Positions 20,887 to 35,712 of a stretch of 64,000 bases of DNA are shown piece by piece. Location of the stretch: NCBI RefSeq assembly GCF_000153725.1, contig NZ_DS022276.1, positions 1,397,386 to 1,461,385 on the forward strand, read 5' to 3'. Source of the stretch: Salipiger bermudensis HTCC2601. GTDB lineage: Bacteria; Pseudomonadota; Alphaproteobacteria; Rhodobacterales; Rhodobacteraceae. The notes beneath the pieces were generated by a model. It had not been told where the DNA came from. It worked only from the letters and a program-made list of their open reading frames with translations, and ran no database searches. Each line of letters starts with the position of its first letter. The stretch's first letter is position 1. The translations under genes were made by a program, and so were the position numbers.

Positions 20887-21615
20887 ATGACATATCGCGT
20901 TCTGTGCCTCCTCGGGCTCCTCGTCCTCTTCGGGTGCAGCCGTCTCGACCACCTCGGCAAGGCACCAAGCTTCACCCCGCAGGAGCAGAGCCCGGAGCGG
21001 GTCGCCATGGCCTATTCCGGGGTCCCGACCGTTGCCTTGCCCCAACGTCAGACCGATCAGGCCTCTCTCTGGAGCCGTGAGCGAAGCTCGTTGCTCGGCG
21101 ATCGGCGGGCCATGAAACAGGGCGATATCCTCACCGTCGTGATCGAGATTGACGACGAGGCCAGCATCTCGAACAGCACATCGCGCTCGCGGTCAGGCTC
21201 GGAGAGCCTCTCTGTGCCCCAACTCCTTGGGATACCGCAACGCATCGACGAGGATCTTCCGCTCGGGGCCACCATGGCGGATGCGGTCGATCTTGGCAGT
21301 CAGGCTGCATCGGGAGGAGACGGGCAGGTCCAGCGCAGGGAAGAGCTTACCCTCCGGGTGGCTGCGACGATCACCGACGTGATGCCGAACGGGGTGCTGG
21401 CGATCGAGGGGGCGCAGGAAGTGCGGGTGAATTTCGAGCTCCGGGAATTGCTGGTGTCGGGCTTTGTCCGCCCTGAAGACATCACGCGGCAGAACGAGAT
21501 CACCTATGACAAGATCGCCTCGGCCAAGATTTCCTATGGCGGCCGCGGCCAGATCAGCGACATGCAGCAGCCGCGCTATGGCCAGCAGGTGCTCGACATT
21601 GTCCTGCCATTCTGA
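20887..21615 (+). CDS. flgH: Flagellar L-ring lipoprotein FlgH
   Basis: FlgH builds the outer-membrane L ring. The 242-residue protein starts with a lipoprotein signal ending LFGC (Cys17). It contains SLWSRERSSLLGDRRAMKQGDILTV and the C-terminal GFVRPEDITRQNEITYDKIASAKISYGGRGQISDMQQPRYGQQVLDIVLPF typical of the family. It is 3 bp from flgA and 10 bp from fliL. Confidence 0.96.
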   Translation: MTYRVLCLLGLLVLFGCSRLDHLGKAPSFTPQEQSPERVAMAYSGVPTVALPQRQTDQASLWSRERSSLLGDRRAMKQGDILTVVIEIDDEASISNSTSRSRSGSESLSVPQLLGIPQRIDEDLPLGATMADAVDLGSQAASGGDGQVQRREELTLRVAATITDVMPNGVLAIEGAQEVRVNFELRELLVSGFVRPEDITRQNEITYDKIASAKISYGGRGQISDMQQPRYGQQVLDIVLPF

Positions 21616-21625
21616 CGAGGCCGCG

Positions 21626-22141
21626 ATGAAAAAGCTACTGCCCATTCTCCTGGCCGTGATCGGCACCGCAGCGGGGATCGGCGCCGGCCTCTTCCTCGCG
21701 CCGGCGCCCACTGCCCACGATACAGCCGAGTCCGCCTCGGCAGGGGATGTGCATGACACCAGTGCGCATGACGGCGCCGGAGATCATTCCGATGCGGACG
21801 ATGAAGAGGGCGAGGGTGGCAATGAATACGTGCGGCTGAGCAACCAATTCGTGGTTCCGGTCGTCGGCAATGACCGAGTCGAGTCGCTTGTGGTCCTGTC
21901 GCTGAGCCTCGAGGTCGGTCCCGGCGATACCGAGGCGGTCTTTGCCCAGGAACCGAAGCTCCGCGACGTGTTCCTGCGGGTCCTCTTCGACCACGCCAAT
22001 ATCGGCGGGTTTGCGGGCAATTTCACCGAGCAGCATCGCATGGACCGACTGCGTCGCGCCCTCTGGGAAGCCGCCCGAAACGTAATGGGCAAGATCGTGG
22101 TCGATGTGCTCATCACCGAGATCGCCCGGCAGGATTCCTGA
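21626..22141 (+). CDS. fliL: Flagellar basal body-associated protein FliL
   Basis: FliL is an inner-membrane protein that surrounds the stator and supports torque. The 171-residue product has one N-terminal membrane segment (about 3-27), a His/Asp/Glu-rich acidic linker (about 30-65) and a stomatin-like periplasmic domain ending EAARNVMGKIVVDVLITEIARQ. It is the last gene of the rod operon. In several roseobacters fliF or fliP lies next to fliL, but here a convergent fliJ-like gene ends only 7 bp away. Confidence 0.9.
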   Translation: MKKLLPILLAVIGTAAGIGAGLFLAPAPTAHDTAESASAGDVHDTSAHDGAGDHSDADDEEGEGGNEYVRLSNQFVVPVVGNDRVESLVVLSLSLEVGPGDTEAVFAQEPKLRDVFLRVLFDHANIGGFAGNFTEQHRMDRLRRALWEAARNVMGKIVVDVLITEIARQDS

Positions 22142-22148
22142 CCTCGGA

Positions 22149-22574
22149 TCAGACCTCCGGATCCTTGAGAGCCAGCCTCCAAAGCGCATCCAGCCGGATC
22201 TCTTCCTGGTGAAGCCGCTTGTGCTGCAAGATGGCTGCCTCCTGCTCGTGCAACCGCTTGGTTGCTTCGGCCTGGGCCAGCGCAAGCCGCGCCCGAGCGA
22301 GACTGTGTTCCTGCTGCACGCGGCAGCGCGCCAGATCACGGTTCAGCTCGCCTCTCCTGCGCGACAGCCAGCCCTGCCAGAGCGTGTCGGCCCCGATCAG
22401 CCGCCGGTCCGCGAGGCTCTCGGTCTCGGAAAAGGCGGCCTGTCTCAACGCGTCGATCCGCGCAAGTTCATCCAGAAGACGCCGCTCCTCGTCCCGGTCG
22501 CGGCGGTTCTGCTCGAAGGCCCGGTCCTGCAGAAGCCGGGTGAGCTGACCAAGATCGCTCTGCGCACGGCTCAT
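22149..22574 (-). CDS. FliJ-like coiled-coil protein
   Basis: The 141-residue product is almost one continuous helix rich in Arg, Leu, Gln and Glu, with two long coiled-coil stretches (about 3-60 and 65-130). That architecture and its place immediately after flhB (4-nt overlap) match FliJ, the export-apparatus stalk that links FliI to FlhA. Sequence-level similarity is low, as is normal for FliJ. A FliH-like role is less likely because of the length. Confidence 0.65.
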   Translation of the reverse strand: MSRAQSDLGQLTRLLQDRAFEQNRRDRDEERRLLDELARIDALRQAAFSETESLADRRLIGADTLWQGWLSRRRGELNRDLARCRVQQEHSLARARLALAQAEATKRLHEQEAAILQHKRLHQEEIRLDALWRLALKDPEV

Positions 22575-23662
22575 CGACCGCCTCGCCGACGGCGCATCGT
22601 CTCGCGCATATCCTCTGCAAAGCGGATCGCCGCCGCCACCGGGCGGTAATGTTCTGGCGCGATCTGCTCACCGATCCGGGTGGTGGCATGCAGCGCCCGC
22701 GCGGTGGGCGGGTCGGAATGCAGCGGCACGCCCGCGTCCTCGGCGACTTCGCGGATCCTGCGGGCAATTTCGTCCACGCCCTTGGCGACACAGATCGGGG
22801 CGTCCCCTGGCTTGCGGCTCCAGCTCAGCGCCACGGCGTAATGGCTCGGGTTCACAATCACCACGTCGGCGCGTGGCACGTCGGCCATCATCTGGGTCTG
22901 GGCGATCTCCTGCGCCCGGGCGCGGCGCTGCTGCTTGAACATCGGATCGCCCTCGGCCTCCTTGTGTTCATCTCGGAGCTCTTTCTGGGACATCCGGTTG
23001 CGCCGCAAATGCTCGGCCCGTTGCCAGAGATAGTCTACCGCACCGATGCACAGAGCCACCACTGCGGCAATCCCGAGCAGCTGCAGCATGAGATTGAGCA
23101 TAAGCTCCGCGGCATCCGGCGCCGCGCCGCGAAGCACCCCGATGATGAGGTCATAGCGCGACGACAGGAACAGGCCGAGCACGACCGAGTAGACAGTCAG
23201 CTTGACGAAGCTCTTGAGAAACTCGAACAGGCCACGTCGGCCATACTTGTTGCGCGCATTTTCCATCGGAGAAAGACGGCTCGCCTTAGGTGCCAGCCGG
23301 GACGGTGCGAACACCAGACCACGGGTCGCGAAGAGCGCACACAGCACCACCGCCCCCGGCACCGCCAACCACGGCAAAACCGGCTTCAGCACCGCGCCAA
23401 GCACCGTGGCCGCGGGTGCCGTCGCCATCCCGTTGAAGAACAGCGATCCGAGCTTTTCGGGATGCTCGACAAACGGGAGCATCGCCTCGCCGAGACGCAG
23501 CACCGCGCCACCGCCTATCGAGAGGCCGGTCGCCAGCAGCCCGAGATAGGCTGCCGCGGTCAAAAGGTCCGGCGACCGCGGTATCTCCCCCTTGCGACGC
23601 GCCTCTTCGAGCTTGCGCGGTGATGGCTCATGGGATTTTTCTGCCGACTGTTCCTCTGCCAT
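22571..23662 (-). CDS. flhB: Flagellar export switch protein FlhB (NPSH variant)
   Basis: FlhB controls the switch of export specificity through autocleavage. The 363-residue protein has the N-terminal EKSHEPSPRKLEEARRKGEIPRS, four hydrophobic segments (about 32-54, 88-112, 145-167, 188-211) and the cytoplasmic domain. The cleavage loop reads N-P-S-H at 271-274, where the family consensus is NPTH. The Asn and Pro needed for cleavage are present. Stop and start overlap the fliJ-like gene by 4 nt; fliR lies 6 nt upstream. Confidence 0.96.
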   Translation of the reverse strand: MAEEQSAEKSHEPSPRKLEEARRKGEIPRSPDLLTAAAYLGLLATGLSIGGGAVLRLGEAMLPFVEHPEKLGSLFFNGMATAPAATVLGAVLKPVLPWLAVPGAVVLCALFATRGLVFAPSRLAPKASRLSPMENARNKYGRRGLFEFLKSFVKLTVYSVVLGLFLSSRYDLIIGVLRGAAPDAAELMLNLMLQLLGIAAVVALCIGAVDYLWQRAEHLRRNRMSQKELRDEHKEAEGDPMFKQQRRARAQEIAQTQMMADVPRADVVIVNPSHYAVALSWSRKPGDAPICVAKGVDEIARRIREVAEDAGVPLHSDPPTARALHATTRIGEQIAPEHYRPVAAAIRFAEDMRETMRRRRGGR

Positions 23663-23668
23663 GGGCGC

Positions 23669-24436
23669 CTAGGGGGTCTGACCGGAGAGAAAGCGGTCGA
23701 CGCTTGCGATCCACAGGGAGAGCATCAGCGGAGCGGTGACCAGAAGCAAGGCGATCGAGCCGAAGGTGATCACCGGGGCGCCAACGAAGGCCACCATCAG
23801 CTGTGGCATCGCCTTGTTGATGAATCCAAGCGTCAAGTTGTAGAGCGCCGAGAGGATCACGAAGGGCGCGGCGAGCGTGAAAGCCAGGGCGAAGGCCATC
23901 GCAATGTGCCCGCGCCCGGCCTGCGCGATAAGCGATGGATCGGGCAGGAGCAGAGCCGGAAACAGTTCGAAGGAAAGAATGATGAACCCTGCCACCTTGA
24001 CGTGAAAGCCCGTGCTCATCAGCAGCGCCAGCGCCGCCACCGTCAGCACATGCCCGATCGCCGGCATCGGATCCGCGGCGCTGTTGCCAAGCAGCTGCGC
24101 CAGCGAGGTGGATTGCGCCGCAATGCTGCCCGCGGTCTGCAGCGCGTGCATGAAGAGCCGAAGCCAGAGGCCGAGGATCAGGCCGATCACGGACTCGGTC
24201 ACCAGCGCCCAGGCCACCGTGCCGAGACCCGGCGGCGGCAGCGCCAGATCGGCGCCGGTCGCCGGCAGAACGGTGACGGTGAGCACGAGGCCAAGCGCCA
24301 GTCGGACCCGCATCGGAACCGTCTGCTCCCCCAGGCCCGGCAGCACCGCCATCATCGCCCCGACGCGCAGGAAAACGACCAGCGCCAGCCACCACCACCC
24401 CAGAAGAAGCGGCATGAACCCGGTCGCCCCGCTCAT
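23669..24436 (-). CDS. fliR: Flagellar export gate protein FliR
   Basis: FliR is a membrane subunit of the export gate. The 255-residue protein is hydrophobic over its whole length with about six membrane segments, and contains the family stretches FLRVGAMMAVLPGLGE (about 22-37) and PFVILSALYNLTLGFINKAMPQL (about 182-204). The ATG at 24436 overlaps the flhA stop by 4 nt (ATGA), so translation is coupled. Confidence 0.95.
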   Translation of the reverse strand: MSGATGFMPLLLGWWWLALVVFLRVGAMMAVLPGLGEQTVPMRVRLALGLVLTVTVLPATGADLALPPPGLGTVAWALVTESVIGLILGLWLRLFMHALQTAGSIAAQSTSLAQLLGNSAADPMPAIGHVLTVAALALLMSTGFHVKVAGFIILSFELFPALLLPDPSLIAQAGRGHIAMAFALAFTLAAPFVILSALYNLTLGFINKAMPQLMVAFVGAPVITFGSIALLLVTAPLMLSLWIASVDRFLSGQTP

Positions 24437-26508
24437 GCCGCCACAACCCCGACCAGCGCGGGCTTGGCCTCGATCCCGATCTCTTCGAAGGATAGCACCG
24501 GATTGGCGATCCCCTTGGCAGAGAGGATCGTGCGCAGGAACCGCCGGCGACGTGCGCTGGTGACAAGCGCGGGAAAAATCCCGCGGTTCCCGGCTTCGCT
24601 GACCTCGGCGGCGACACCGCTGGTCAGGCTCTCGAACAGATCGGGCGGCAGGGCGACGTCGAGCCCGCCAGCGGAGCCCTCGACCTGGTAGGTCGAAAAG
24701 GTATCTTCCCATTCCGGGGAGAGCTGGATCAAGGGAATCGTTCCGTCCTTCCGGCGCATCCCCGCGACCAGCTGGAACCCGATGCGCTGCCGCACGTGTT
24801 CACAGATCACGTCGGGCCGCGCCTGTTGGCCACGCATCTCCGAGATTGCCTCGAGAATCAGAGGCAGGTTGCGGATGCTGACCTGTTCCTCGAGCAGCAG
24901 CCGCAACACCTGATGCAGCGTATCGATCTGAACCTTGTCCGGGATCAGTTCATCAAGCAGACGACGGTTCGCCTCGGCCCGAGCGGGGTTGCTGAGGCTC
25001 ACCATCTCGTCCAGCAGCCGGCGGAGCGATTTGAGCGTGAGAAGCCGCCCGAAATTTCGCTTTATGACCTCGAGCAGATGGGTCGCCAGAACCTCGGTCG
25101 GGGTCACGATGGTCGCACCGGTGAGCGCCGCACGGTCGCGATGCTCGGGCTTGATCCAACGCGCCGGAGCGCCATAGACCGGCTCGGTCACGTCACGCCC
25201 GCCAGGAAGGCTGGCATGATCGTCGGGCATCAGCGCCAGGACCAAATCCGGGTTGAGCTCTCCGCGCGCGACCTCGACGCCGTGGATCCGGATCAGGTAG
25301 ATCCCGGTTTCGAGCGCCGGAGCATCGGTCAGCCGGATCTCGGGCAGGATGATGCCGAATCCCGAGGCGATGTGGCGCCGCATGTTGTCGATCCGCACAT
25401 CGAGCCCGGTGCCCGGATCGAGCACCATGTTCACGAGATCGGGAGCAAATTCGACATGGATCTCGTCGACATCGAGGATGTCGCCGATGGGGCGCTCGCG
25501 GGGGGGCTCGGGTGCCTCGGCCTCCGGGGCGGCCGTGGGCTCGGCCAGCCGCCGCGCCATGAAGATTGCAAGCCCACCGAGCACGCCCGAGCCGAGGATG
25601 AACGGCAGAAAAGGCAAGCCCGGCACGAGCGCGAACAGGGCCATCAGCACCGCGACCGTTCCCAGCGCCGCCGGGTGCCGGGCGAGCTGCCCCGCCACGG
25701 CCACATCGGTGGCCCCGATGGCGCCTCCGCGCGCCAGAAGAAGCCCCGAGGCGATGGAGATGATCACCGCCGGAATCTGCGACACGAGCCCGTCACCGAC
25801 GGTCAGGATGGCATAGGTTTCGAAGGCGCGGGACAGTGGCATGCCCTGGCCGAAGATCCCCATCACCATGCCCATCACGAGGTTCAGCAGCGTGATCAGA
25901 AGACCCGCGACCGCGTCGCCCTTGACGAATTTCGATGCCCCGTCGAGCGAGCCGAAAAAGGTCGTCTCCTGCTGTTCGCGTTCCCGCCGCGCCTTGGCTT
26001 CGGCATGGTCGATGGCCCCTGAGGACATGTCACTGTCGATCGCGAGTTGCTTGCCCGGCATGCCGTCGAGCGCAAAGCGCGCACCGACCTCGGCCATGCG
26101 CGCGGCCCCCTTGGTGATCACCGCGAAGTTCACGATCATCAAGACGCCGAACACGACGAGCCCAAGAAAGACACTGCCCCCCATGACAAAATTGGCGAAC
26201 CCCTCGATCACATCGCCTGCGGCGGAGGTGCCGGTGTGCCCCTGACCGATGATCAGTTTGGTCGAGCTCACGTTCAGTGAGAGCCGCAGCATGAGCGATG
26301 CCAGCAGGATCGTCGGGAAGGCCGAAAAATCCAGCGGGCGCTCGATAAACAGGGTGACTGTGAAGATCAGGATCGCGAGCCCGAAGGACGCGGCAAGACC
26401 GACATCCAGGATCCATGCGGGCACCGGGAGGATCATCATCACGATGACCGCCATCAGGGCCACGGCGAGAAGTACGGTGGGCTTGAAGAACATGCCGGTG
26501 GCCATCAT
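24433..26508 (-). CDS. flhA: Flagellar export gate protein FlhA
   Basis: FlhA is the large nonameric export-gate subunit. The 691-residue protein has an N-terminal membrane half of about eight segments and the conserved FHIPEP-type loop, including ANFVMGGSVFLGLVVFGVLMIVNFAVITKGAARMAEVGARFALDGMPGKQLAIDSDM. The C-terminal cytoplasmic substrate-docking domain starts at about residue 350. The frame stays open another 393 bp upstream, but ATG 26508 gives the normal length and start. No clear Shine-Dalgarno precedes it. It is followed by fliR and flhB. Confidence 0.94.
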   Translation of the reverse strand: MMATGMFFKPTVLLAVALMAVIVMMILPVPAWILDVGLAASFGLAILIFTVTLFIERPLDFSAFPTILLASLMLRLSLNVSSTKLIIGQGHTGTSAAGDVIEGFANFVMGGSVFLGLVVFGVLMIVNFAVITKGAARMAEVGARFALDGMPGKQLAIDSDMSSGAIDHAEAKARREREQQETTFFGSLDGASKFVKGDAVAGLLITLLNLVMGMVMGIFGQGMPLSRAFETYAILTVGDGLVSQIPAVIISIASGLLLARGGAIGATDVAVAGQLARHPAALGTVAVLMALFALVPGLPFLPFILGSGVLGGLAIFMARRLAEPTAAPEAEAPEPPRERPIGDILDVDEIHVEFAPDLVNMVLDPGTGLDVRIDNMRRHIASGFGIILPEIRLTDAPALETGIYLIRIHGVEVARGELNPDLVLALMPDDHASLPGGRDVTEPVYGAPARWIKPEHRDRAALTGATIVTPTEVLATHLLEVIKRNFGRLLTLKSLRRLLDEMVSLSNPARAEANRRLLDELIPDKVQIDTLHQVLRLLLEEQVSIRNLPLILEAISEMRGQQARPDVICEHVRQRIGFQLVAGMRRKDGTIPLIQLSPEWEDTFSTYQVEGSAGGLDVALPPDLFESLTSGVAAEVSEAGNRGIFPALVTSARRRRFLRTILSAKGIANPVLSFEEIGIEAKPALVGVVAA

Positions 26509-26632: not shown

Positions 26633-28885
26633 TTACTCCTCCGCCAGTCGTGTCTGGTCGAGCAGCGCCCGAAGCGTGTCCCGGGTTTCGGCCCCGGAGG
26701 TGGCAAGCGCTTCGACGACGGCCAGGCTCGGCTGCGGGCCGGCGCCGTCCGGAAGCGCCGATCCGACAAGCTCTGCCGCTGCGGCCAGGGCGTCCTCGCC
26801 TTCACCCAGCGCGGCCCAATCCCCTGCGAGCCAGGCGGCAGACCGCGCTGCGCCGTCCTCGCCGAGGGCCCCGAAGGCGGTTTGCGCATAGCTGTAGTCA
26901 CCCATCATCGCCCGAGCCTGCGCGCGCAGTGCAAGTGCGTCATCCCCCTGAAGGCCAATCAGCGCGATCTCGGCCTGTTGTGGATCGGAGCGGGCCAGAT
27001 GGATCTCCGAGAGCAACAGCCGGCGTTCACGAGACTCTCGATCGAGCACCGGAAGCGATGCCCAGGCCATTGCATCGTCCGCGAGGCCAAGACCGAGCAG
27101 CCGGCGCGCCACCGTGAGGGCCACATCCGCCTGGACGAGCGTCGCATACTCCGCGCGCCGTGGCACCGCTTCTTGCAGAAAGCCCGTGTCCGACCCCTGC
27201 ACCGAGAGCGCAGTCAGCAATTCTGAAGCCGCGGCCCGGCGGTGCTCCTCGGGCATGTCGTCTCCGTTGCGAAAGGCTTCGAAAGCGTCCTCGAAACGAT
27301 CGTTCGCCGCCAGCGCCCGCAGATGCGCAAGCCAGAGCTCCGGCCCTTTTTCGGTGGCGCGCAGCTCTGTCGAATAGGCCGCGGAGAGATCGGTCATCCG
27401 CGCGTTCACCGGCGCGCCGTTTTCGGAAGCAAGCGCAATGGTCGCTGCGACCGCATCGGGAGCATGCGCGCCCGCCCCGTGCGACAGGTCTTCGAGAACC
27501 GAATGCGCCTCTTGTACCGCGCCCTCGAGCCGGTCGATCTGGGCCTGACTGAAGCGCATTTCTGCGTCAGAGGCACCACCGGACCGGGCCAGCCGCGAGA
27601 GCAGGTTGCGTGCGGCGTCTGAATGCCCCGCCTCTGCCAGTCGGGTCGCAAGCGTCGGCCCCAGCACCGGTCGCAGGGTTGCGGGCAGAGCCTCGAAGGC
27701 GCGCCTCACCGAACGGTCATCGACCTCCGCCTCTTCCGGAAGCTCGGGGGCCCCGGCAAGCGCCCAGAGCGCGGCTGCGCCCTCGCACCCTGTCTGGCCC
27801 GCAAACACACCGGCGCGATCTGTCGCGCCATCCACGATACCAGCAAGCGCATAAAGCACCGGATCGCGCCGGTCGGGCAACAGCTCGAGCAGCGCGCGCG
27901 CCTCGGCCCCGAAACCGATATAGACATGGGCGCGCACCAGATCGGTAAGGATCTCCGGGTCGAGCGTGTCGAATTCACCGTAGAGCCGTCTGCGCAGCTC
28001 CGGGATGGTCTTGTCAAACGTCCCGTCCGTGCCCCAGGAGGCGATGTCGAGCGCGCCATCCGCGACGCAGCCGGTGCCGCCGATGCGGACGCGCGTCTGC
28101 ATGTCGGCGGGTTCGCGGCCAAGAATTGCTGCCTCGATCTGTGAATGCGCGCCCGCAAGTTCGGGCACCGGCATCCCGTGATCATTCGCATCGTCTCTCG
28201 CGGCGTCCGGTGTCGCTGCGTCCGTTGCTGCGAGACGTTGCGGCAGACCGTTTCTGCTCGGTGACAACAAACCGTCGCTGGCTGCCGTCGCGAGTTGTTC
28301 AGCCAAGGTCCGTCCGAGCGCAGCGGAATCCATGCGATCGGCTGCCTCAATCCGCTCTGACAGAGCCAGTTCAGGCTCGGTTGCGCGTTGTGGCACGAAG
28401 ACAGGCAGCAAATGGTTGCGCGCAGGCGACGGGCCTATGCCCGGCTGCGGACCGACCCGGATCCCGGAGAGCGGCCTCTTTTCTTCCGGCGTCGGTCCGG
28501 ATGCATCCGCCATTTGTGGAGGCTCTCCAGGCCGAATGTCGAGCACCAGCATGCCCGGCTCCGCGAGAAACGCCTCTGCAACGCAGTCACAGCCAAATTC
28601 GAGCGCAAGGCCTGCCCCGCCTGGAAGCGGGTCAAGGCCCGAGAGCCGCTCGGTGTTGATGCGCGCGAAGACATCGCTGCTGTCAAACCGGTAACCCCTG
28701 CCATCGAAGCGCAGCTCGATCCGCCGGGGCGCGACATACTCCGTCTGCCACCCCAGACCGTCGGGAATATCGAGCGCGAGCCGCGTGAAAGAGCCATGCT
28801 CTCCGGAGCGGACACGGATCTCCTGCGCCGAAGCTGCACCGGCACAGAGCCAGAGCGACGTGCAAAACAGCGCGATACGGATCAT
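26633..28885 (-). CDS. Large periplasmic protein coupled to motA, AMIN-like N-terminus, function unknown
   Basis: I do not recognise a named family. The 750-residue product has a clear signal peptide (cut after about AASAQ, residue 21). An AMIN-like beta domain (about 22-117) follows, with FTRLALDIPDG and MLVLDIRPG. Then comes a low-complexity linker (about 118-230) and a long Ala/Leu-rich helical part to the C-terminus that looks like degenerate TPR-type repeats (for example AGHSDAARNLLSRLARSGG, LARSDPQQAEIALIGLQGDDAL). Two Cys pairs may form disulfides. Its ATG overlaps the motA stop (ATGA), so it is probably made with the stator. A motor-scaffold role would fit, but this is inference. Confidence 0.85.
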   Translation of the reverse strand: MIRIALFCTSLWLCAGAASAQEIRVRSGEHGSFTRLALDIPDGLGWQTEYVAPRRIELRFDGRGYRFDSSDVFARINTERLSGLDPLPGGAGLALEFGCDCVAEAFLAEPGMLVLDIRPGEPPQMADASGPTPEEKRPLSGIRVGPQPGIGPSPARNHLLPVFVPQRATEPELALSERIEAADRMDSAALGRTLAEQLATAASDGLLSPSRNGLPQRLAATDAATPDAARDDANDHGMPVPELAGAHSQIEAAILGREPADMQTRVRIGGTGCVADGALDIASWGTDGTFDKTIPELRRRLYGEFDTLDPEILTDLVRAHVYIGFGAEARALLELLPDRRDPVLYALAGIVDGATDRAGVFAGQTGCEGAAALWALAGAPELPEEAEVDDRSVRRAFEALPATLRPVLGPTLATRLAEAGHSDAARNLLSRLARSGGASDAEMRFSQAQIDRLEGAVQEAHSVLEDLSHGAGAHAPDAVAATIALASENGAPVNARMTDLSAAYSTELRATEKGPELWLAHLRALAANDRFEDAFEAFRNGDDMPEEHRRAAASELLTALSVQGSDTGFLQEAVPRRAEYATLVQADVALTVARRLLGLGLADDAMAWASLPVLDRESRERRLLLSEIHLARSDPQQAEIALIGLQGDDALALRAQARAMMGDYSYAQTAFGALGEDGAARSAAWLAGDWAALGEGEDALAAAAELVGSALPDGAGPQPSLAVVEALATSGAETRDTLRALLDQTRLAEE

Positions 28886-29751
28886 GCCGCCGCCTGCTTG
28901 ACGTTCTTCAACGCTTCTTCGAGATCGGTGAAGCTGGGCCGGAAATGCGCCGGGGTGTTCTGGCGCCCGACCTCGATGCAGATGTTGGTGGCGTGATTGT
29001 GCAGGTTCGCGACAAGCACCTCGCGGATCAGCTGGTAGAAATGCAGATCCTCCTCGACCACCGCCTTGACCTTCACCGCAAACGGGCCGGCGAAACCGTA
29101 GGCCAGAAACACCCCGAGAAAGGTGCCCACCAGCGCCCCGCCGATCAGCTTGCCCAGAACCTCGGGCGGCTGATCGATCGAGCCCATGGTCTTGATCACC
29201 CCAAGGACCGCCGCCACAATCCCCAGCGCCGGCAGCCCGTCGGCCATGGCCTGCAGGGCATGGCTCGAGTGCATCCGATGATGCTCGAGCGCTTCGATCC
29301 GCTTGTCGAGCACCTCTTCAACCTGATGCGGATCATCGTAATTCATCGACATCGAGCGCATGGTGTCGCAGATCAGCTCGATGGCGATCTTGTCGCCCTG
29401 AATCTTCGGATACTTGGAGAAGATGGTCGATTCATCTGGAGATTCCACGTGTTCCTCGATGGCCACGGGGCTCTGGCGGGCCAGCCTGATCAACTCGAAC
29501 AGCAGGCAGAGCAGTTCCTTATAGTCCGCGGGCTTCCATTTCGCGCCCTTGAACACCTTTCCGACATCCTTGAGCGTGTGCTTCACCACGCCCGCGTCAT
29601 TGCCGATCAGAAACGTGCCGAGCGCGGCACCACCGATCATCATCATCTCGAACGGGAGCGATTTCAGGATGATCGACATCTTGCCGCCAGCGAGAAGATA
29701 TCCGCCAAAGACCATGCCGAAAATCACGACGATCCCGATGATTCCCATCAT
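28882..29751 (-). CDS. motA: Flagellar motor stator protein MotA
   Basis: MotA is the ring-forming stator subunit that turns ion flow into torque. The 289-residue protein has four membrane segments: two near the N-terminus and two in GLPALGIVAAVLGVIKTMG and LGKLIGGALVGTFLGVFLAYGFAGPFA. Between them is the cytoplasmic loop with charged residues that contact FliG. ATG 29751 is preferred over 29772 because GGAG lies 8 nt upstream. Partner motB is not adjacent (34879-35712). The next gene overlaps by 4 nt. Confidence 0.95.
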   Translation of the reverse strand: MMGIIGIVVIFGMVFGGYLLAGGKMSIILKSLPFEMMMIGGAALGTFLIGNDAGVVKHTLKDVGKVFKGAKWKPADYKELLCLLFELIRLARQSPVAIEEHVESPDESTIFSKYPKIQGDKIAIELICDTMRSMSMNYDDPHQVEEVLDKRIEALEHHRMHSSHALQAMADGLPALGIVAAVLGVIKTMGSIDQPPEVLGKLIGGALVGTFLGVFLAYGFAGPFAVKVKAVVEEDLHFYQLIREVLVANLHNHATNICIEVGRQNTPAHFRPSFTDLEEALKNVKQAAA

Positions 29752-29850
29752 TGCGGTGACTCCTTCACCCATCCCGCGCGCTCACTCGTGTCATCGTCTT
29801 GGTAGCGCGGGGGCGGTTAACAAAACCCTCAGCCCCGGAGGTTTCAGCGG

Positions 29851-30963
29851 TTACATCACGAGGAAATCAGCGTGCAGCGCGCCGGCGGCCTTGATGCTCT
29901 TGAGAATGTCGATCATGTCGCGCGGTGAGACCCCAAGCGCGTTCAGCCCCGCGATCACCTCGGAGAGCGAGGTACCGCCCGGCACCTCGGCCAGACCGAT
30001 CCCGGGCTCCTCGACGATATCGGCGCCGGTGCGCGGGACGATCACGGTCTCGCCTTCAGCAAAGGGGTTCGGCTGCACGGCAATCGGCGTCTCTTCGATG
30101 CGCAGGGTCAGATTCCCCTGCGACACGGCCACGCGGGAAATTCGTACGTCTTCGCCCATCACGATCGTGCCCGAGCGCTGATCCACCACGACGCGGGCGC
30201 GACGCTCCGGCTCGACCGGGAGGTTCTCGATCGCGACCACGGCCTGCGCCGGAGATCCGGTCCCCGTTTGTTGCAGGTTGACGGAGACCGTACCCGCATC
30301 GAGCATCTCAGCCGCACGGCGCCCGACCCGCCGGTTGATCGCCGCCTCGATCCGAGCCGCGGTGGTGAAGTCAGGTTCGCGCAGCGCCAGGCGCAGGGTC
30401 GACAGATCGGCAAAGGCGAACTCCACCTCGCGCTCGATCCGGGCGCCCGCGGGGATCATACCCGAGGTCGGGACCCCCTGCACCACCCGCGCGCCATCAC
30501 CCTCTGCATTGACGCCGCCCGCGATCACGGTGCCTTGCGCCACGGCGTAGATCTGTCCGTCCGCGGCATTGAGCGGGGTCATGATCAGGGTACCGCCCAG
30601 CAGGCTGCTGGCGTCACCGATCGCCGAAACCGTCACGTCGATCTGGCTGCCGGCTCTCCCGAAGGGCGGCAAGCGGCTGGTCACGAACACCGCGGCCACG
30701 TTGCGCGGCCGGAACTGCTCACCGGTCACGTTGACCCCGAGCCGTTCGAGAATGTTCTGCATGATCTCTTCTGTGAAGGGAGCATTGCGCAACCCGTCGC
30801 CGGTGCCGTTGAGGCCGACCACCAGACCATAGCCGACAAGATCGTTGGAGCGGACGCCGTCGAATTCCACCAGATCCTTGATACGTACGGACTGCGCAGC
30901 TGCGCTCTGGGTCAGGAGACACAGAGTGAAGGCTAGGCAGAGGCCAAGCAGACGCGTGATCAT
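29851..30963 (-). CDS. flgI: Flagellar P-ring protein FlgI
   Basis: FlgI forms the periplasmic P ring. The 370-residue product has a signal peptide (cut after about QSAAAQ) and the family stretch VRIKDLVEFDGVRSNDLVGYGLVVGLNGTGD. NVAAVFVTSRLPPFGRAGSQIDVTVSAIGDASSLLGGTLIMTPL and a C-terminal SLSEVIAGLNALGVSPRDMIDILKSIKAAGALHADFLVM complete it. Length is normal. The ATG overlaps the flgL stop by 4 nt. Confidence 0.97.
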   Translation of the reverse strand: MITRLLGLCLAFTLCLLTQSAAAQSVRIKDLVEFDGVRSNDLVGYGLVVGLNGTGDGLRNAPFTEEIMQNILERLGVNVTGEQFRPRNVAAVFVTSRLPPFGRAGSQIDVTVSAIGDASSLLGGTLIMTPLNAADGQIYAVAQGTVIAGGVNAEGDGARVVQGVPTSGMIPAGARIEREVEFAFADLSTLRLALREPDFTTAARIEAAINRRVGRRAAEMLDAGTVSVNLQQTGTGSPAQAVVAIENLPVEPERRARVVVDQRSGTIVMGEDVRISRVAVSQGNLTLRIEETPIAVQPNPFAEGETVIVPRTGADIVEEPGIGLAEVPGGTSLSEVIAGLNALGVSPRDMIDILKSIKAAGALHADFLVM

Positions 30964-31964
30964 CGCAGGAACTCCACCAGCGACATGCGTGAGGACCGCA
31001 CGGTGATGGCATAGAGACTTTCGAGCTGCGAACGGGTGTTCTCGTAGCGGGTGGCGGTCTCGAACTGGTCCGTTCCGACCAGCTCGAGCCGGGCGATGCT
31101 CGTGGCCGTGCGTTCGGCCGCGTTGCGCGCGGTGGTTTCTTCGATCCGTTGTTCGACCGTGCCGAGCCCGGCCCGCAACTCGACCATGCTGGCCATCGCG
31201 GTTTGCAGGTCAAGCGCCGCGCTCGAGATCAGGTCGACCTTGACCGCACCGGACAGGGTCAGCGTGTCGTCGCTGGCCAGAGCCGCCTTGGCCATCGCTT
31301 TCATGACATCGCGAAACACCGCATCGTCGCCCCGAATGTCGACGCCTGCGCTTTCGGTGGCACTCAACTGGAGAGGCGCAAGCGAGGTGGTCGATCCGAG
31401 ATAGCCGTCAGTCTCGAAGCCACCTCCCGGCGTGTTGAACCAGTCATCCAGGGCGGTCTCGACATCCGTTACGGTCGTGGCCCCGGCCAGCGCTGTCTGA
31501 AGCTCGGCGATCATCGCCTCGCCCTCGATCACCGCCGGGGTATCGGTGGCGGTGCCGGAGAACAGGAAGCGACCGGCGACCGATCGGTTGAGCCCGTTCA
31601 GCATGTGGCCCAGGGCGTTGCCAGCCTCGGTGGAGAGCGTGCGGAACATCTCGTCGTTCGGGGTCAGCTCGAGCGCGAGAAGCACCTGCGAGAGCAGTTC
31701 CGACCGTGTCTGGATCTCATCCAGCGTGGTCTGCATGGTGCCGGTGAGGAACGCGGCCTCGGTGGTATTCACCCGATAGGTTTCGAGCTGCGCCAGCCGG
31801 CGGTCGATCGAGACCAGCGACGAGACGTCTCCGCCAAGATGGGAGACCGGATCGCGGACGAAGCCGGTCGCGATCTCGGTGCCGAGCTGGTCGAGATCGC
31901 GGTTCAGGCGGGTCTGGTGGGTGCGCAGGACCAGGGTTCTGGCAAGATCTCCGACGGTATCCAA
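30960..31964 (-). CDS. flgL: Hook-filament junction protein FlgL
   Basis: FlgL joins FlgK to the flagellin filament. The 334-residue protein has a flagellin-like N-terminal helix (TLVLRTHQTRLNRDLDQLGTEIATGFV), GRFLFSGTATDTPA and a C-terminal helix. The sequence is divergent from enterobacterial FlgL, but the order flgE-flgK-flgL-flgI supports the name. It lies 10 bp after flgK. Confidence 0.9.
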   Translation of the reverse strand: MDTVGDLARTLVLRTHQTRLNRDLDQLGTEIATGFVRDPVSHLGGDVSSLVSIDRRLAQLETYRVNTTEAAFLTGTMQTTLDEIQTRSELLSQVLLALELTPNDEMFRTLSTEAGNALGHMLNGLNRSVAGRFLFSGTATDTPAVIEGEAMIAELQTALAGATTVTDVETALDDWFNTPGGGFETDGYLGSTTSLAPLQLSATESAGVDIRGDDAVFRDVMKAMAKAALASDDTLTLSGAVKVDLISSAALDLQTAMASMVELRAGLGTVEQRIEETTARNAAERTATSIARLELVGTDQFETATRYENTRSQLESLYAITVRSSRMSLVEFLR

Positions 31965-31974
31965 CGGTGCCTCC

Positions 31975-33435
31975 TCAGATGTTCATCAGGGTCTGCATGA
32001 GCTCGTCCACCGTGGTGATGACGCGCGCGTTCGCCGCGTAATGCTGCTCGATCCGGAGAAGCTCCTGCAGCTCGGCGTCGGTATCGACCCCCTTGGACAG
32101 TTCAAGCTCCTTCAGCGCGGTGTTCTGGGCGCTGCTGAAGCTCTGCTCGCCATCTGCCCGCAGCCGCGCGGCAGCGATGGCGGCATGGAAATCCGCGACA
32201 TGCTGGGCAAAGCTCTGTGCGCCTGACCCAAGCGCGGCCGATCCCGGGCTCATCAGCGCGTCCAGCGCATCGGAATAGCCCCGAAGAAGACGTGCCTCTC
32301 CGACCGGTCCCTGCACCGCGGCGCCAAGGCCATCCCGCAGGCGCCAGGTCCCGCTGCCGGCCGGATCGACCAGCGAATTGAGCGCGATCCGCCCTGCGAG
32401 CCCCGTTTCGTCCAACGGATCGAAGGCGGTGCCCGCATCGGTAAAGAGACCGGGGTCAGTAGCCCCGAGGGTGCTGTCCGGACCACCCGGGGCGAAGCGC
32501 TCGATCAGGTCACGGGCAATGCCATCGATCGCCGCCTGCATGTCCGGCGCAACGATATCGCGGATCTGGAACTGGGCACCGAGCGTGCCGCCGCCGAGCG
32601 CGCCATCATTGCTGCTGTTGACCGCCTTGCCATTGACCTCGAGCCCCGAAAGCGTACCGGCGCCAATGCTCAGATCGGCAGTGACCGGATCCTGCGGCGT
32701 GAAGCTGATCTCCACCGGGTCGCTGTGGAAATCCGGATCGAGAAGAACCGTGCCCGACGCCGCGTAGAGCGCAACGGCCCCGTTTTCGCGTGCCACGCTG
32801 CGGAGCGGCACGATGTCGGAGACGTCGTCGATCACCCGCTGGCGCTGGTCCATGAGCGATGCCGGATCGCCGCCGCGCAGCAGGCTGTCGCTGATCGCGG
32901 TGTTGAGCTCGGAAACGCGGCCGAGCGCGGTGTTGAACCGTGTGACCTGTGACCCGATGCTGCGGTCGGCATCGGTCCGGGCATCCTGGATCTCGACGCT
33001 GATCTGGTTCAGCATGGTGGTGAAATCCTCGGCCCTCTGCGCCACCAGCTTCAGCCGCTGGTCCGATGCCGGATCGGTGGCGGCAGAGAGCAACGCGGTC
33101 TCGAAGGCCGCATAGCGACCCACCAGAGATCCTGCCGTGTCGGTCGGCCCGAGCAGGGTTTCGACGCGGGATGCGAAGCTCTGCATCTCGTCGGCAAAGC
33201 CGGACTGGGCGTCGGACAACCGGCGGTCTGCCAGCACGGCGGGGTCGACATTGCGGGTGACCCCGTCGATCCACACCCCACCGGAATTTCCAAGCGTCCG
33301 GGCCGAAAGATCGAGCGTTCGGCGACCATAGCTTTCGGTCGTCGCGTTGGCGATGTTCGAGGCCACGAGGCCGGCCGATCGGCTGTTCGCGGTCAGCCCG
33401 CTCAGCGCGTTGGACAGTGCTCCGCTCAGTGACAT
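31975..33435 (-). CDS. flgK: Hook-filament junction protein FlgK
   Basis: FlgK is hook-associated protein 1. The 486-residue product has the hook/rod N-terminus SLSGALSNALSGLTANSRSAGLVASNIANATTESYGRR, the typical GDPASLMDQRQRVIDDVSDIVPL block (about 182-204) and a C-terminal ELEL..GVDTDAELQELLRIEQHYAANARVITTVDELMQTLMNI helix. It lies 39 bp after flgE in the same direction. Confidence 0.95.
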   Translation of the reverse strand: MSLSGALSNALSGLTANSRSAGLVASNIANATTESYGRRTLDLSARTLGNSGGVWIDGVTRNVDPAVLADRRLSDAQSGFADEMQSFASRVETLLGPTDTAGSLVGRYAAFETALLSAATDPASDQRLKLVAQRAEDFTTMLNQISVEIQDARTDADRSIGSQVTRFNTALGRVSELNTAISDSLLRGGDPASLMDQRQRVIDDVSDIVPLRSVARENGAVALYAASGTVLLDPDFHSDPVEISFTPQDPVTADLSIGAGTLSGLEVNGKAVNSSNDGALGGGTLGAQFQIRDIVAPDMQAAIDGIARDLIERFAPGGPDSTLGATDPGLFTDAGTAFDPLDETGLAGRIALNSLVDPAGSGTWRLRDGLGAAVQGPVGEARLLRGYSDALDALMSPGSAALGSGAQSFAQHVADFHAAIAAARLRADGEQSFSSAQNTALKELELSKGVDTDAELQELLRIEQHYAANARVITTVDELMQTLMNI

Positions 33436-33474
33436 GTGGTGCCCTCCGTGGAAGGGCTGACCCCGTTACCGGGC

Positions 33475-34773
33475 TCAGCGCTTCATGTTGGTGGTTTCCT
33501 GCAGCATCTCGTCGACGGTCTGGATCACCTTGGCGTTGGAGGAATAGGCGCGCTGGGTGCGGATCATGTCGGTCAGTTCCTGCGCGATGTCGGTGGCGGA
33601 TTCCTGTCTGGCATAGGACTTCACGCTGCCGGTCGGTCCGTCCCCGGCATCCCACAGAAAGAACGATCCGCTCTCTGGCGAGGGCCGGAAGGTCGAGCCA
33701 TCCACCGCGATCATGCCATTGTAATTGGGCAGGTCGACCAGCGGGATCTGGTAGAGCACCTGGCTCTGGCCGCTGTCGTAGAGCGCGCTGACATAGCCGT
33801 TCTCGTCGACCTCGACCGAGACCATGTTGCCGACCGAGGAGCCGTCCTTGGAGATCGAGATCGGCGCGAAACTGTCGCCAAGCTGCGACAGACCTCCTGT
33901 CGTGCCCGTGGCGCCGATGTCGAACTCGATCGGGCCGCCGGCCACGTCGACGGTGAAGAGGCCTGTCCCGGCATTGTAGGCGCCGCCCGTGGTTTCGACC
34001 ACGGTCGCGATCGTGCCGCCCGCACCGGTCGTCGCATCGAACGTGATGGTATAGTCACCGATCACCGCGCCGTCCTGCGCGGAGTCGGTCATCACCATGC
34101 TCCACTCATTCGAGATCCCGGTGGCGGGAACCGTCGGCGTGAAGGTGATCGAGATGCTCTGCGAGATGCCAACATTGTCGAAATACTCGATCTCGAGATA
34201 CTCTGCATCGCCCGCCGCGCCGGCCTGTGTCTCGGTGGCGGGCAGGTTCAGCGCCATGTCGACCGCGGTGGTCGGATCGCCGGTGAGGCTGAGGCTGAAC
34301 TTGACCGGCTCGAGACCGTTGATGGTATCGCGCGGATAGGGCGGAATCGAGCCGTCGAGCGCCGCCGGCCACCCCATCAGGTAGTAGCCGTTCTCGCTTG
34401 CCAGATAGCCGTTCTCGTCGATCCGGAAGGAGCCGGTCGATGTCAGCAATAGCTCGGGCTCGCCCGTGGCTTCGTATTGCGCTTGCGATGCCACCGGGAG
34501 CATGCCGATCCCGTCCACCGCCAGATCCGTGGCGTTGCTGGTCGAGACGATGGCCCCGCCCTCGTCGATCAGGCGCAGGTTGTCGATCGCGGTGCCACCC
34601 GCGGTGTAGGCCCGCTGACTTCCGCTCGACATCACGAGCGCGGTGAAATCCGTTTCGACCCTGCGATATCCATAGGTCGAGGAGTTCGCGATATTGTCGG
34701 AGATGGCGCTGAGGCGGCTGGCATTGCCCGCCAGCCCCGAAACGCCGGCATTGAGAGACGAAGAAATGGTCAT
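33475..34773 (-). CDS. flgE: Flagellar hook protein FlgE
   Basis: FlgE is the hook subunit. The 432-residue protein begins SISSSLNAGVSGLAG-like (TISSSLNAGVSGLAGNASRLSAISDNIANSSTYGYRRVETDF) and ends ELTDMIRTQRAYSSNAKVIQTVDEMLQETTNMKR. The long variable middle is Gly/Thr/Asp-rich. It is the first gene of flgE-flgK-flgL-flgI; a CtrA-like site lies 61 bp upstream of its ATG. Confidence 0.95.
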   Translation of the reverse strand: MTISSSLNAGVSGLAGNASRLSAISDNIANSSTYGYRRVETDFTALVMSSGSQRAYTAGGTAIDNLRLIDEGGAIVSTSNATDLAVDGIGMLPVASQAQYEATGEPELLLTSTGSFRIDENGYLASENGYYLMGWPAALDGSIPPYPRDTINGLEPVKFSLSLTGDPTTAVDMALNLPATETQAGAAGDAEYLEIEYFDNVGISQSISITFTPTVPATGISNEWSMVMTDSAQDGAVIGDYTITFDATTGAGGTIATVVETTGGAYNAGTGLFTVDVAGGPIEFDIGATGTTGGLSQLGDSFAPISISKDGSSVGNMVSVEVDENGYVSALYDSGQSQVLYQIPLVDLPNYNGMIAVDGSTFRPSPESGSFFLWDAGDGPTGSVKSYARQESATDIAQELTDMIRTQRAYSSNAKVIQTVDEMLQETTNMKR

Positions 34774-34878: not shown

Positions 34879-35712
34879 TCAGCTGCGCAGAAAGATGATC
34901 TCGAGCCGCGTGTTGCGCGGGTCCATCGGGTTGTTCTTGGCCGGTTCACGGTCGGCATGCGCGGTGACCCGGTTGATCCGGGCCTTTGACAGCCCGTCCG
35001 CAAGCAGCAACTCGCGGAACCGGTCGGCATGTCGGGTCGAAACCTCCCAGGAGGGATCGCGCGCGAGAACGATCGGATAGGCCCCGACATGGCCCTCGAT
35101 CGCAAGCGGATTGGTCACCATGTCCGAGACCCCCGCGATCACGCCGGAGAGCGCGCGCAGCAGCTCGGTCGGGGCGCCCTGGGCGTCGAAGAGCGGCGCC
35201 TCCTCGGTTGCAAAAAGCTCGACCACGAGCCCCTCATCGGTGACGCGGGTCACGATATGGCGCATCAGCGTGTCGCTGATCATGCTTTCGCCGCCACGCC
35301 CCATGAGCAGATCCTCAACCGCTTCCAGCGCCTCGTCCTGCGCGCCGATCTCGTCGGCCTCGCCCGGGTCCGATGCGCCGCGCGCGGCATGTTGCGAGGT
35401 CGGCCTCAGGCTCGTGGCGCCGGTTCCGACCCGTGGCAACGTGTTCTCGGAGAAGATGCTGTCCCCACCGAGACTGCCATCGCCGCCACCGGAAACCCGG
35501 CTGATCGCGATGGTTGGGCTGAAGTAGTCCGCAAGCCCCTTGCGCTGTTTTTCCGTTGTCGCATTCAGCAGCCACATCAACATGAAGAAGGCCATCATCG
35601 CGGTGACGAAATCGGCATAGGCGACCTTCCATGCGCCGCCGTGATGCCCGTCACCGCCCGAAACCTTCTTCCTCTTGATGATGACCGGCGCGACACTGCT
35701 GTCGACCGCCAT
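34879..35712 (-). CDS. motB: Flagellar motor stator protein MotB
   Basis: MotB is the peptidoglycan-anchored stator subunit. The 277-residue protein has one membrane segment near the N-terminus (about 31-50) with the proton-carrying Asp34 in YADFVTAMMAFFMLMWLLN. A plug region and an OmpA-like peptidoglycan-binding domain (about 140-277) follow. Asp34 and the many aliphatic residues fit a proton motor. It is separated from motA by the flgI-L-K-E block. Confidence 0.95.
   Translation of the reverse strand: MAVDSSVAPVIIKRKKVSGGDGHHGGAWKVAYADFVTAMMAFFMLMWLLNATTEKQRKGLADYFSPTIAISRVSGGGDGSLGGDSIFSENTLPRVGTGATSLRPTSQHAARGASDPGEADEIGAQDEALEAVEDLLMGRGGESMISDTLMRHIVTRVTDEGLVVELFATEEAPLFDAQGAPTELLRALSGVIAGVSDMVTNPLAIEGHVGAYPIVLARDPSWEVSTRHADRFRELLLADGLSKARINRVTAHADREPAKNNPMDPRNTRLEIIFLRS

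Follow-up and report, generated by a model that had tools for sequence, protein, structure and literature searches.

The closest described counterpart of the protein considered here is MotK of Cereibacter sphaeroides (RSWS8N_12065), which is periplasmic and whose loss leaves the motK mutant paralysed (Velez-Gonzalez 2024, PMC10954123). According to the same article, MotK binds MotE and MotB2, MotK-sfGFP is found at the flagellated pole (a location that needs MotA2 and MotB2), MotE is degraded when MotK is missing, and a motE mutant keeps its filaments.

In Phaeobacter inhibens, a flagellar cluster with the gene order fliL, CP2, CP3, motA, CP4, sltF, flhA has been described (mSystems 2025, PMC12363192). 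CP4 (PGA1_c35690) is essential for motility, the mutant being non-motile; its loss shrinks the set of exported flagellar proteins, with FliC, FlgK, and FlgE still exported. Complementation used the whole operon, so polar effects may contribute to the CP4 phenotype. CP3 mutants lack flagella. The article calls CP1–4 uncharacterised and exclusive to fla1-type clusters of Rhodobacterales, and the term MotK is absent from it.

A third protein, FssB (CC_2058) of Caulobacter crescentus, is a secreted TPR protein; cells with an fssB deletion carry filaments, are paralysed, and do not swim (Hershey 2021, PMC7885107). The gene for FssB comes after the one encoding the MotE-like CC_2059 (PMC13023049). 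PMC10954123 reports no BLAST similarity between MotK and Caulobacter proteins. A FEMS review (2026, PMC13023049) and a preprint (2025, PMC11870540) both liken MotK, CC_2058, and the MotC protein of Sinorhizobium meliloti to PflA, described by Drobnic (2025, PMC12222027). PflA belongs to the motor spokes of Campylobacter jejuni, consists of an AMIN-like beta-sandwich, an unstructured linker, and a TPR superhelix, and acts with an E-ring protein and the stators (PMC11870540, PMC12222027). MotC is periplasmic, acts with MotE, and is mainly TPR (PMC13023049); it has no AMIN domain and is encoded behind motB rather than motA (PMC13023049, PMC10954123). Our literature searches found no further paper joining the names MotK, CP4, FssB, and PflA.

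The motK gene, its predicted fold, and its relatives

The window (the whole stretch of 64,000 nucleotides of Salipiger bermudensis HTCC2601 that was analysed) contains a flagellar gene cluster in which the minus-strand order is motB, flgE, flgK, flgL, flgI, motA, motK, flhA. The relevant features are as follows.

26633..28885, minus strand: motK, encoding a predicted periplasmic AMIN–linker–solenoid protein of 750 residues (open frame, family-wide homologues, purifying selection)
28882..28885, minus strand: ATGA overlap of the motA stop and the motK start (sequence)
28826..28885, minus strand: signal peptide, residues 1–20 (sequence; cleavage after ASA judged by eye)
28529..28825, minus strand: AMIN beta-sandwich, residues 21–119, with conserved C99 and C101 (AlphaFold model, superposition on AmiC 4bin)
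28076..28528, minus strand: low-confidence, fast-evolving linker, about residues 120–270 (pLDDT, conservation, dN)
26654..28060, minus strand: alpha-helical TPR-like solenoid, residues 276–744, with conserved C367 inside and C273 just before it (structure models)
28882..29772, minus strand: motA, stator A subunit (TIGR03818, MotA1, 369.3 bits, cut-off 303.8)
29851..34773, minus strand: flgI, flgL, flgK, and flgE, upstream and in the same direction (NCBIfam)
34879..35712, minus strand: motB, stator B subunit (MotB_plug, 70.7 bits; GHVG where other MotBs carry GHTD)
24433..26508, minus strand: flhA, downstream (TIGR01398, 808.1 bits from residue 142 of a longer listed ORF; start near 26508 placed by eye)

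The initial annotation of this DNA, made from the sequence alone, had proposed a 750-residue protein whose start overlaps the motA stop (ATGA) and had given no strand. Both the length and the overlap hold: the interval 26633–28885 is interrupted by stops on the plus strand and carries a single open frame of 750 amino acids on the minus strand. That this frame is a real, well-conserved gene under purifying selection is confirmed, since homologues occur in 129 of 198 genomes, comparison with the nearest named relative (an S. bermudensis protein, 81% identical) gives dN 0.116 against dS 0.637, and the four-base overlap recurs, all of which is more than chance would produce. Between the same two proteins the linker is looser (dN 0.233, dS 0.794). 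The mean conservation of the linker is 0.26 against 0.39–0.49 in the other parts of MotK.

The signal peptide that had been claimed is plain by eye (MIRIALFCTSLWLCAGAASA/QE), and Cys14 is unlikely to belong to a lipobox because the nearest relative (L033/L004) has Tyr at that place. Searches of Pfam, NCBIfam, and PDB sequences with the motK product gave no match above any cut-off: the Pfam AMIN-like family PF24837 scored 12.2 bits (E 0.2, cut-off 27), Pfam listed no TPR family, and the PDB sequence search yielded no chain at E < 0.3. Sub-threshold TPR matches were seen in a divergent homologue (L118).

An AlphaFold2 model from 78 sequences (mean pLDDT 86.5) consists of a signal helix, a sandwich at 21–119, a linker at about 120–270 (pLDDT < 60 in 10 of its 15 ten-residue blocks), and a solenoid at 276–744; residues 265–750 folded alone again give an all-helical solenoid (pLDDT 93.1). 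Predicted residues 16–120 superpose on the AMIN domain of Escherichia coli AmiC (4bin) with Z 11.4 and an rmsd of 3.2 over 104 residues, which bears out an AMIN fold for the N-terminal domain of the model despite the Pfam score under cut-off. The AMIN-like N-terminal domain and the TPR-like C-terminal part that had been suggested from the sequence thus both reappear in the predicted fold, the latter as the solenoid. C273 and C367 are present in 78/78 aligned rows, and C99 and C101 each in 75, being missing together in the remaining three; this pattern suggests two disulphides. A GEH motif found in 78/78 aligned proteins was discarded as circular evidence, because the scan for named loci had used GEH as its pattern.

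With the full-length model, Foldseek ranked chain K of 9hmf first among the PDB matches (E 1.7e-7). This entry is the periplasmic scaffold of the C. jejuni motor; the E-value is about 100-fold better than that of the runner-up, yet the TM-scores are low (0.16, 0.15). Chain K has 773 residues and starts at residue 16 in the model; from that length and the full length of PflA, we take it to be PflA minus its signal peptide, so that the top match is probably PflA. With the solenoid alone, the C. jejuni chain came ninth (E 6.4e-4), on a par with PPR and other unrelated solenoids. Because the solenoid by itself is unspecific, the likeness of MotK to PflA is one of layout, and we rejected the match as proof of homology. 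The C. jejuni chain does not appear in the VIA-align listing, an absence that carries no weight as evidence. The analogy with Pfl proteins drawn in the initial annotation therefore stands as regards layout, the best full-length match being to the C. jejuni scaffold, although the solenoid alone does not single out that chain.

By architecture, operon, and lineage, the window gene appears to be motK. It shares with C. sphaeroides MotK the signal peptide, the AMIN sandwich, the disordered middle, and the helical TPR-like part, as well as a gene directly behind motA, a motE in the system, and membership of the same order of bacteria. The C. sphaeroides protein is shorter (652 against 750 amino acids), and its gene forms one operon with motE and motA, whereas in the present genome motA and motK follow flgI and motE lies about 164 kb off. 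By gene order, the window gene is also CP4 of P. inhibens: both come immediately after motA within flagellar clusters of a single bacterial order, matched by gene order only, CP4 being followed by sltF and the window gene by flhA. CP2, CP3, and CP4 would then be PflI, MotE, and MotK, and against a plain equation count that the CP3 mutant lacks flagella, whereas the C. sphaeroides motE mutant has filaments, and that CP4 was complemented with its whole operon. In C. crescentus, unlike in the window, motA is apart from fssB (CCNA_00787 versus CCNA_02137; PMC7885107). MotC does not fit, as the window protein has an AMIN domain and its gene lies behind motA. For C. sphaeroides MotK, P. inhibens CP4, and CC_2058 alike, the equation is by order, architecture, and lineage.

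The initial annotation had also called this gene the most plausible undescribed component of the window, which is wrong: MotK had been named and its mutant found paralysed in 2024 (PMC10954123), and the P. inhibens counterpart was reported as essential for motility in 2025 (PMC12363192). The gene itself adds one member to a known family. What the comparison contributes is to connect names that were given separately (MotK with CP4, probably also with FssB, and, on grounds of layout, with PflA of the motor spokes) and to give CP2–CP4 likely identities; the remaining interest lies in a class-wide family and in the anchoring of a stator with an altered MotB.

Occurrence and gene order

Among the 198 sampled genomes of the family Rhodobacteraceae, 129 have a motK homologue and 141 a MotA1 match above cut-off. 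Linkage to motA is close to general: motK lies on the same strand as, and at most 3 kb from, a MotA in 123 of the 126 genomes with listed places, so the gene is not mostly away from flagellar loci. In four of the 123 it is split over contigs, with the N-terminal piece adjoining MotA. The three exceptions concern the ends of sequences, one gene apparently spanning the origin of a genome made up of a single contig (G175), one near a contig start (G118), and one at a contig end (G040). Also paired with MotA are the motK genes of three genomes whose matches fall outside the listed places (G004, G056, G097) and of two that the first search had missed (G125, G194). The G113 contig stops shortly after motA.

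Ten genomes are left with MotA1 above cut-off and without a motK match. In eight of them, MotA is about 50–55% identical to the window MotA; seven of these eight proteins share 64–85% identity with the MotA encoded on contig C2 here, and for the eighth (G006) the comparison covers the window MotA alone. Two genomes suggest that motK is not indispensable everywhere: G023 (locus L264) has a window-type MotA, a MotE, and, at the expected motK place, a 235-aa ORF with no recognisable motK, and G039 (L265) keeps motA and motE and has a 348-aa form with the AMIN sandwich and without the solenoid. Two further genomes (L189 of G141, L192 of G104) keep a motB-flgE pair with neither a MotK match nor a MotA1 above cut-off, perhaps as remnants of a lost flagellar cluster.

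The named loci (the best 80 of 135, without C. sphaeroides and with the other Paracoccaceae Gemmobacter, Tabrizicola, and Rhodovulum) give the same picture at finer scale. MotK adjoins MotA in 79, the 80th locus beginning at a contig end, and an ATGA-type four-base overlap is found in 71 of the 79, counted by picking the nearest start codon. A plasmid search with the motK product gave one distant match (Paroceanicella profunda, 31%).

Where the named loci have no FlgI match, an ORF of about 198 amino acids, taken as MotE, ends a median of 70 bases before motA (52/53) and is itself preceded by a 131-aa ORF (50/53), an order that appears to match the published fliL-pflI-motE-motA-motK (PMC10954123). 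Salipiger and several other genera have motA-motK placed after flgI instead. An HMM based on 54 MotE ORFs in the named loci located the motE of the present genome (E 3.6e-75) at C6:1590801–1591466, on the contig that carries the window and about 164 kb from motK; the product also matches MgtE_N (29.2 bits, cut-off 25.9). As a family-wide probe for MotE, the HMM outperformed MgtE_N, which was swamped by stronger matches in longer ORFs of about 460–940 amino acids, presumably Mg transporters. New here is that motA and motK stay paired while motE stands 164 kb off.

Beside this motE, a small ORF, a FliL-like ORF, and a FliF-like ORF can be recognised by eye, the FliL-like one adjoining motE at L113:8830–9396; it is the second of its kind, as another FliL-family ORF lies behind flgH in the window (21464–22141, plus strand; 28.8 bits, cut-off 24.6). 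An ORF at 22104–22649 (plus strand) was considered as a MotE candidate and rejected, since it looks like an antisense frame of a 141-aa ORF at 22149–22574 (minus strand). The latter is coiled-coil-like and FliJ-like by eye, its start overlaps the end of flhB, and it is also present near flhB in many named loci.

In a wider set of 289 genomes from the class Alphaproteobacteria, 101 contain matches to the MotK profile, three of them belonging to the family. Many of these matches lie in ORFs of about 1,000–1,400 amino acids; those in ORFs of about 390–540 amino acids may be amidases caught by AMIN alone. Of 20 class loci picked by hand near the top of the list, with some rows skipped and hence no random sample, 19 contain the profile-matching ORF, and 17 of these 19 have MotE on the stretch as well. 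A query with the solenoid only matched 45 of the 289 genomes (again three of the family), and 20 further loci picked by hand from that list, several on short contigs and some from small genomes without MotE, yielded the ORF in 18, with MotE in nine of the 18. To what was known, the profile thus adds a link between MotK and AMIN-TPR proteins of about 1,000–1,400 amino acids beside motE in other alphaproteobacteria, which are likely relatives. Such relatives would speak against CP4 being confined to Rhodobacterales, and the profile seems to bridge part of the BLAST gap between MotK and Caulobacter.

Gene arrangement in the class is varied. A plasmid of Azospirillum brasilense carries a MotK-like gene directly before motA and motB (profile E 6.9e-21). 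At thirteen other alphaproteobacterial loci (L140, L141, L143–L146, L151, L153, L155, L157, L248, L250, L262), the MotK-like gene stands behind two MotB-like genes, preceded in several cases by cheY- and cheZ-like genes (checked with Pfam in L155 only). In the 13 MotB-like pairs read, the membrane Asp is always present in the second gene, which in nine pairs also shows an OmpA-type motif; the first has no OmpA-type motif and, where its membrane stretch was caught, mostly no membrane Asp (L153 keeps it).

A proposed periplasmic arm for the stator, and its alternatives

We consider it about 80% probable that the Salipiger motK orthologue provides a periplasmic arm for MotE and MotB that is tethered by its AMIN domain and recruits or keeps the stators. 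MotK would be exported to the periplasm, where its solenoid would most likely act as the arm holding MotE (a protein of the E-ring/FlgY type) and the periplasmic part of MotB; the AMIN domain, on its flexible linker, would attach the complex to the cell wall or another scaffold component, and MotK would thereby recruit the MotA/MotB stators or keep them in working position. We infer by analogy that the protein acts like C. sphaeroides MotK, that the domains have these partners, and that the AMIN domain binds peptidoglycan. This is the best explanation we can offer for the C. sphaeroides-like architecture and neighbourhood, the presence of motE in the genome, the linkage to motA, the predicted fold, and the published mutants of C. 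sphaeroides, P. inhibens, and C. crescentus. It also agrees with the guess, made from the sequence before these comparisons, that the protein could be a periplasmic scaffold for stators, a guess in keeping with the C. sphaeroides work and with the FEMS review (PMC10954123, PMC13023049).

It is possible, if distinctly less probable than this main reading, that the AMIN domain binds another protein instead of the wall and that MotK is a link inside the scaffold, much as PflA contacts PflB through its beta-sandwich and linker; MotK has the same predicted layout. Against this, no PflB-like gene was recognised among the neighbours of motK in scans that would miss relatives detectable by structure alone, and the AMIN domain of AmiC is called peptidoglycan-binding in PMC10954123.

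The degradation of C. sphaeroides MotE in the absence of MotK (PMC10954123) could be read as meaning that MotK serves chiefly to chaperone or stabilise MotE, with loss of rotation as a secondary effect. We regard this as unlikely, given the polar position of MotK-sfGFP and its dependence on MotA2 and MotB2 (PMC10954123) and the coupling of motK to motA, with motE 164 kb away, in the present genome. Slightly less likely still is a flagellar assembly or export factor outside the stator, which the reduced export of the P. inhibens CP4 mutants (PMC12363192) and the flanking non-stator genes flgI and flhA would favour, because filaments are present but do not rotate in the motK mutant of C. sphaeroides and the fssB mutant of C. 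crescentus (PMC10954123, PMC7885107), and P. inhibens lacking CP4 continues to export FliC, FlgK, and FlgE (PMC12363192).

The altered MotB motif and a second flagellar system

The comparison offers a testable idea of how a stator is held whose MotB lacks the usual aspartate of the OmpA motif. In OmpA, this aspartate contacts diaminopimelate. The window MotB reads GHVG where two second-system MotBs (L114, L121) read GHTD, and its OmpA match (18.2 bits) is below the cut-off of 27.2. Fifty MotBs of the window type (34879–35712) were compared, 30 being the best matches and 20 taken from further down the list (L159–L188, L224–L243); three rows missed by the pattern and one mis-shifted row were read by eye. 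The GHxD aspartate is lost in 47 of the 50 and kept in three (L227, L231, L234). Of the 21 distinct MotB rows obtained from 20 class genomes that had been chosen for their MotK-like matches, 20 retain the aspartate (L213 and L215 gave no row, and L217–L222 repeat genes already counted).

The loss in window-type MotB is a new observation and suggests, without proving, that wall anchoring has shifted in these stators. A strict coupling of the loss to MotK was rejected: the aspartate is also lost in the MotBs of G023, with no recognisable motK, and G039, with a reduced motK (L242, L243), and is kept in 20 of the 21 MotB rows from class genomes with MotK-like matches. Since the loss extends to G023, the link between the MotB aspartate and MotK is suggestive only. 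Searches for literature on the wall-binding residues of MotB gave nothing on point. More speculative than any of this, and in our view doubtful, is the wider proposal that the Rhodobacteraceae stator has given up its own hold on the wall, with MotB losing the aspartate and MotK, produced in step with MotA thanks to the gene overlap, now tying the stator to the wall or the E-ring through its AMIN domain. On this proposal, MotK, FssB, and the long AMIN-TPR proteins (about 1,000–1,400 amino acids) beside motE would form one class-wide spoke family, MotK being its short, motA-coupled form.

A second flagellar system is present in this genome on a 116-kb contig (L114, L115, L280; G000:C2, 60000–107500). 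Its MotA is 51% identical to the window MotA, and its MotB reads GHTD. A MotE-like ORF (L115:13018–13635) adjoins FliL and FliM, and a 625-aa ORF (L280:3283–5160), with a signal peptide by eye and no AMIN match, aligns with the solenoid portion of a profile built on 19 class ORFs (E 6.4e-26). Each of the two flagellar systems thus seems to have its own MotE and its own TPR-like protein.
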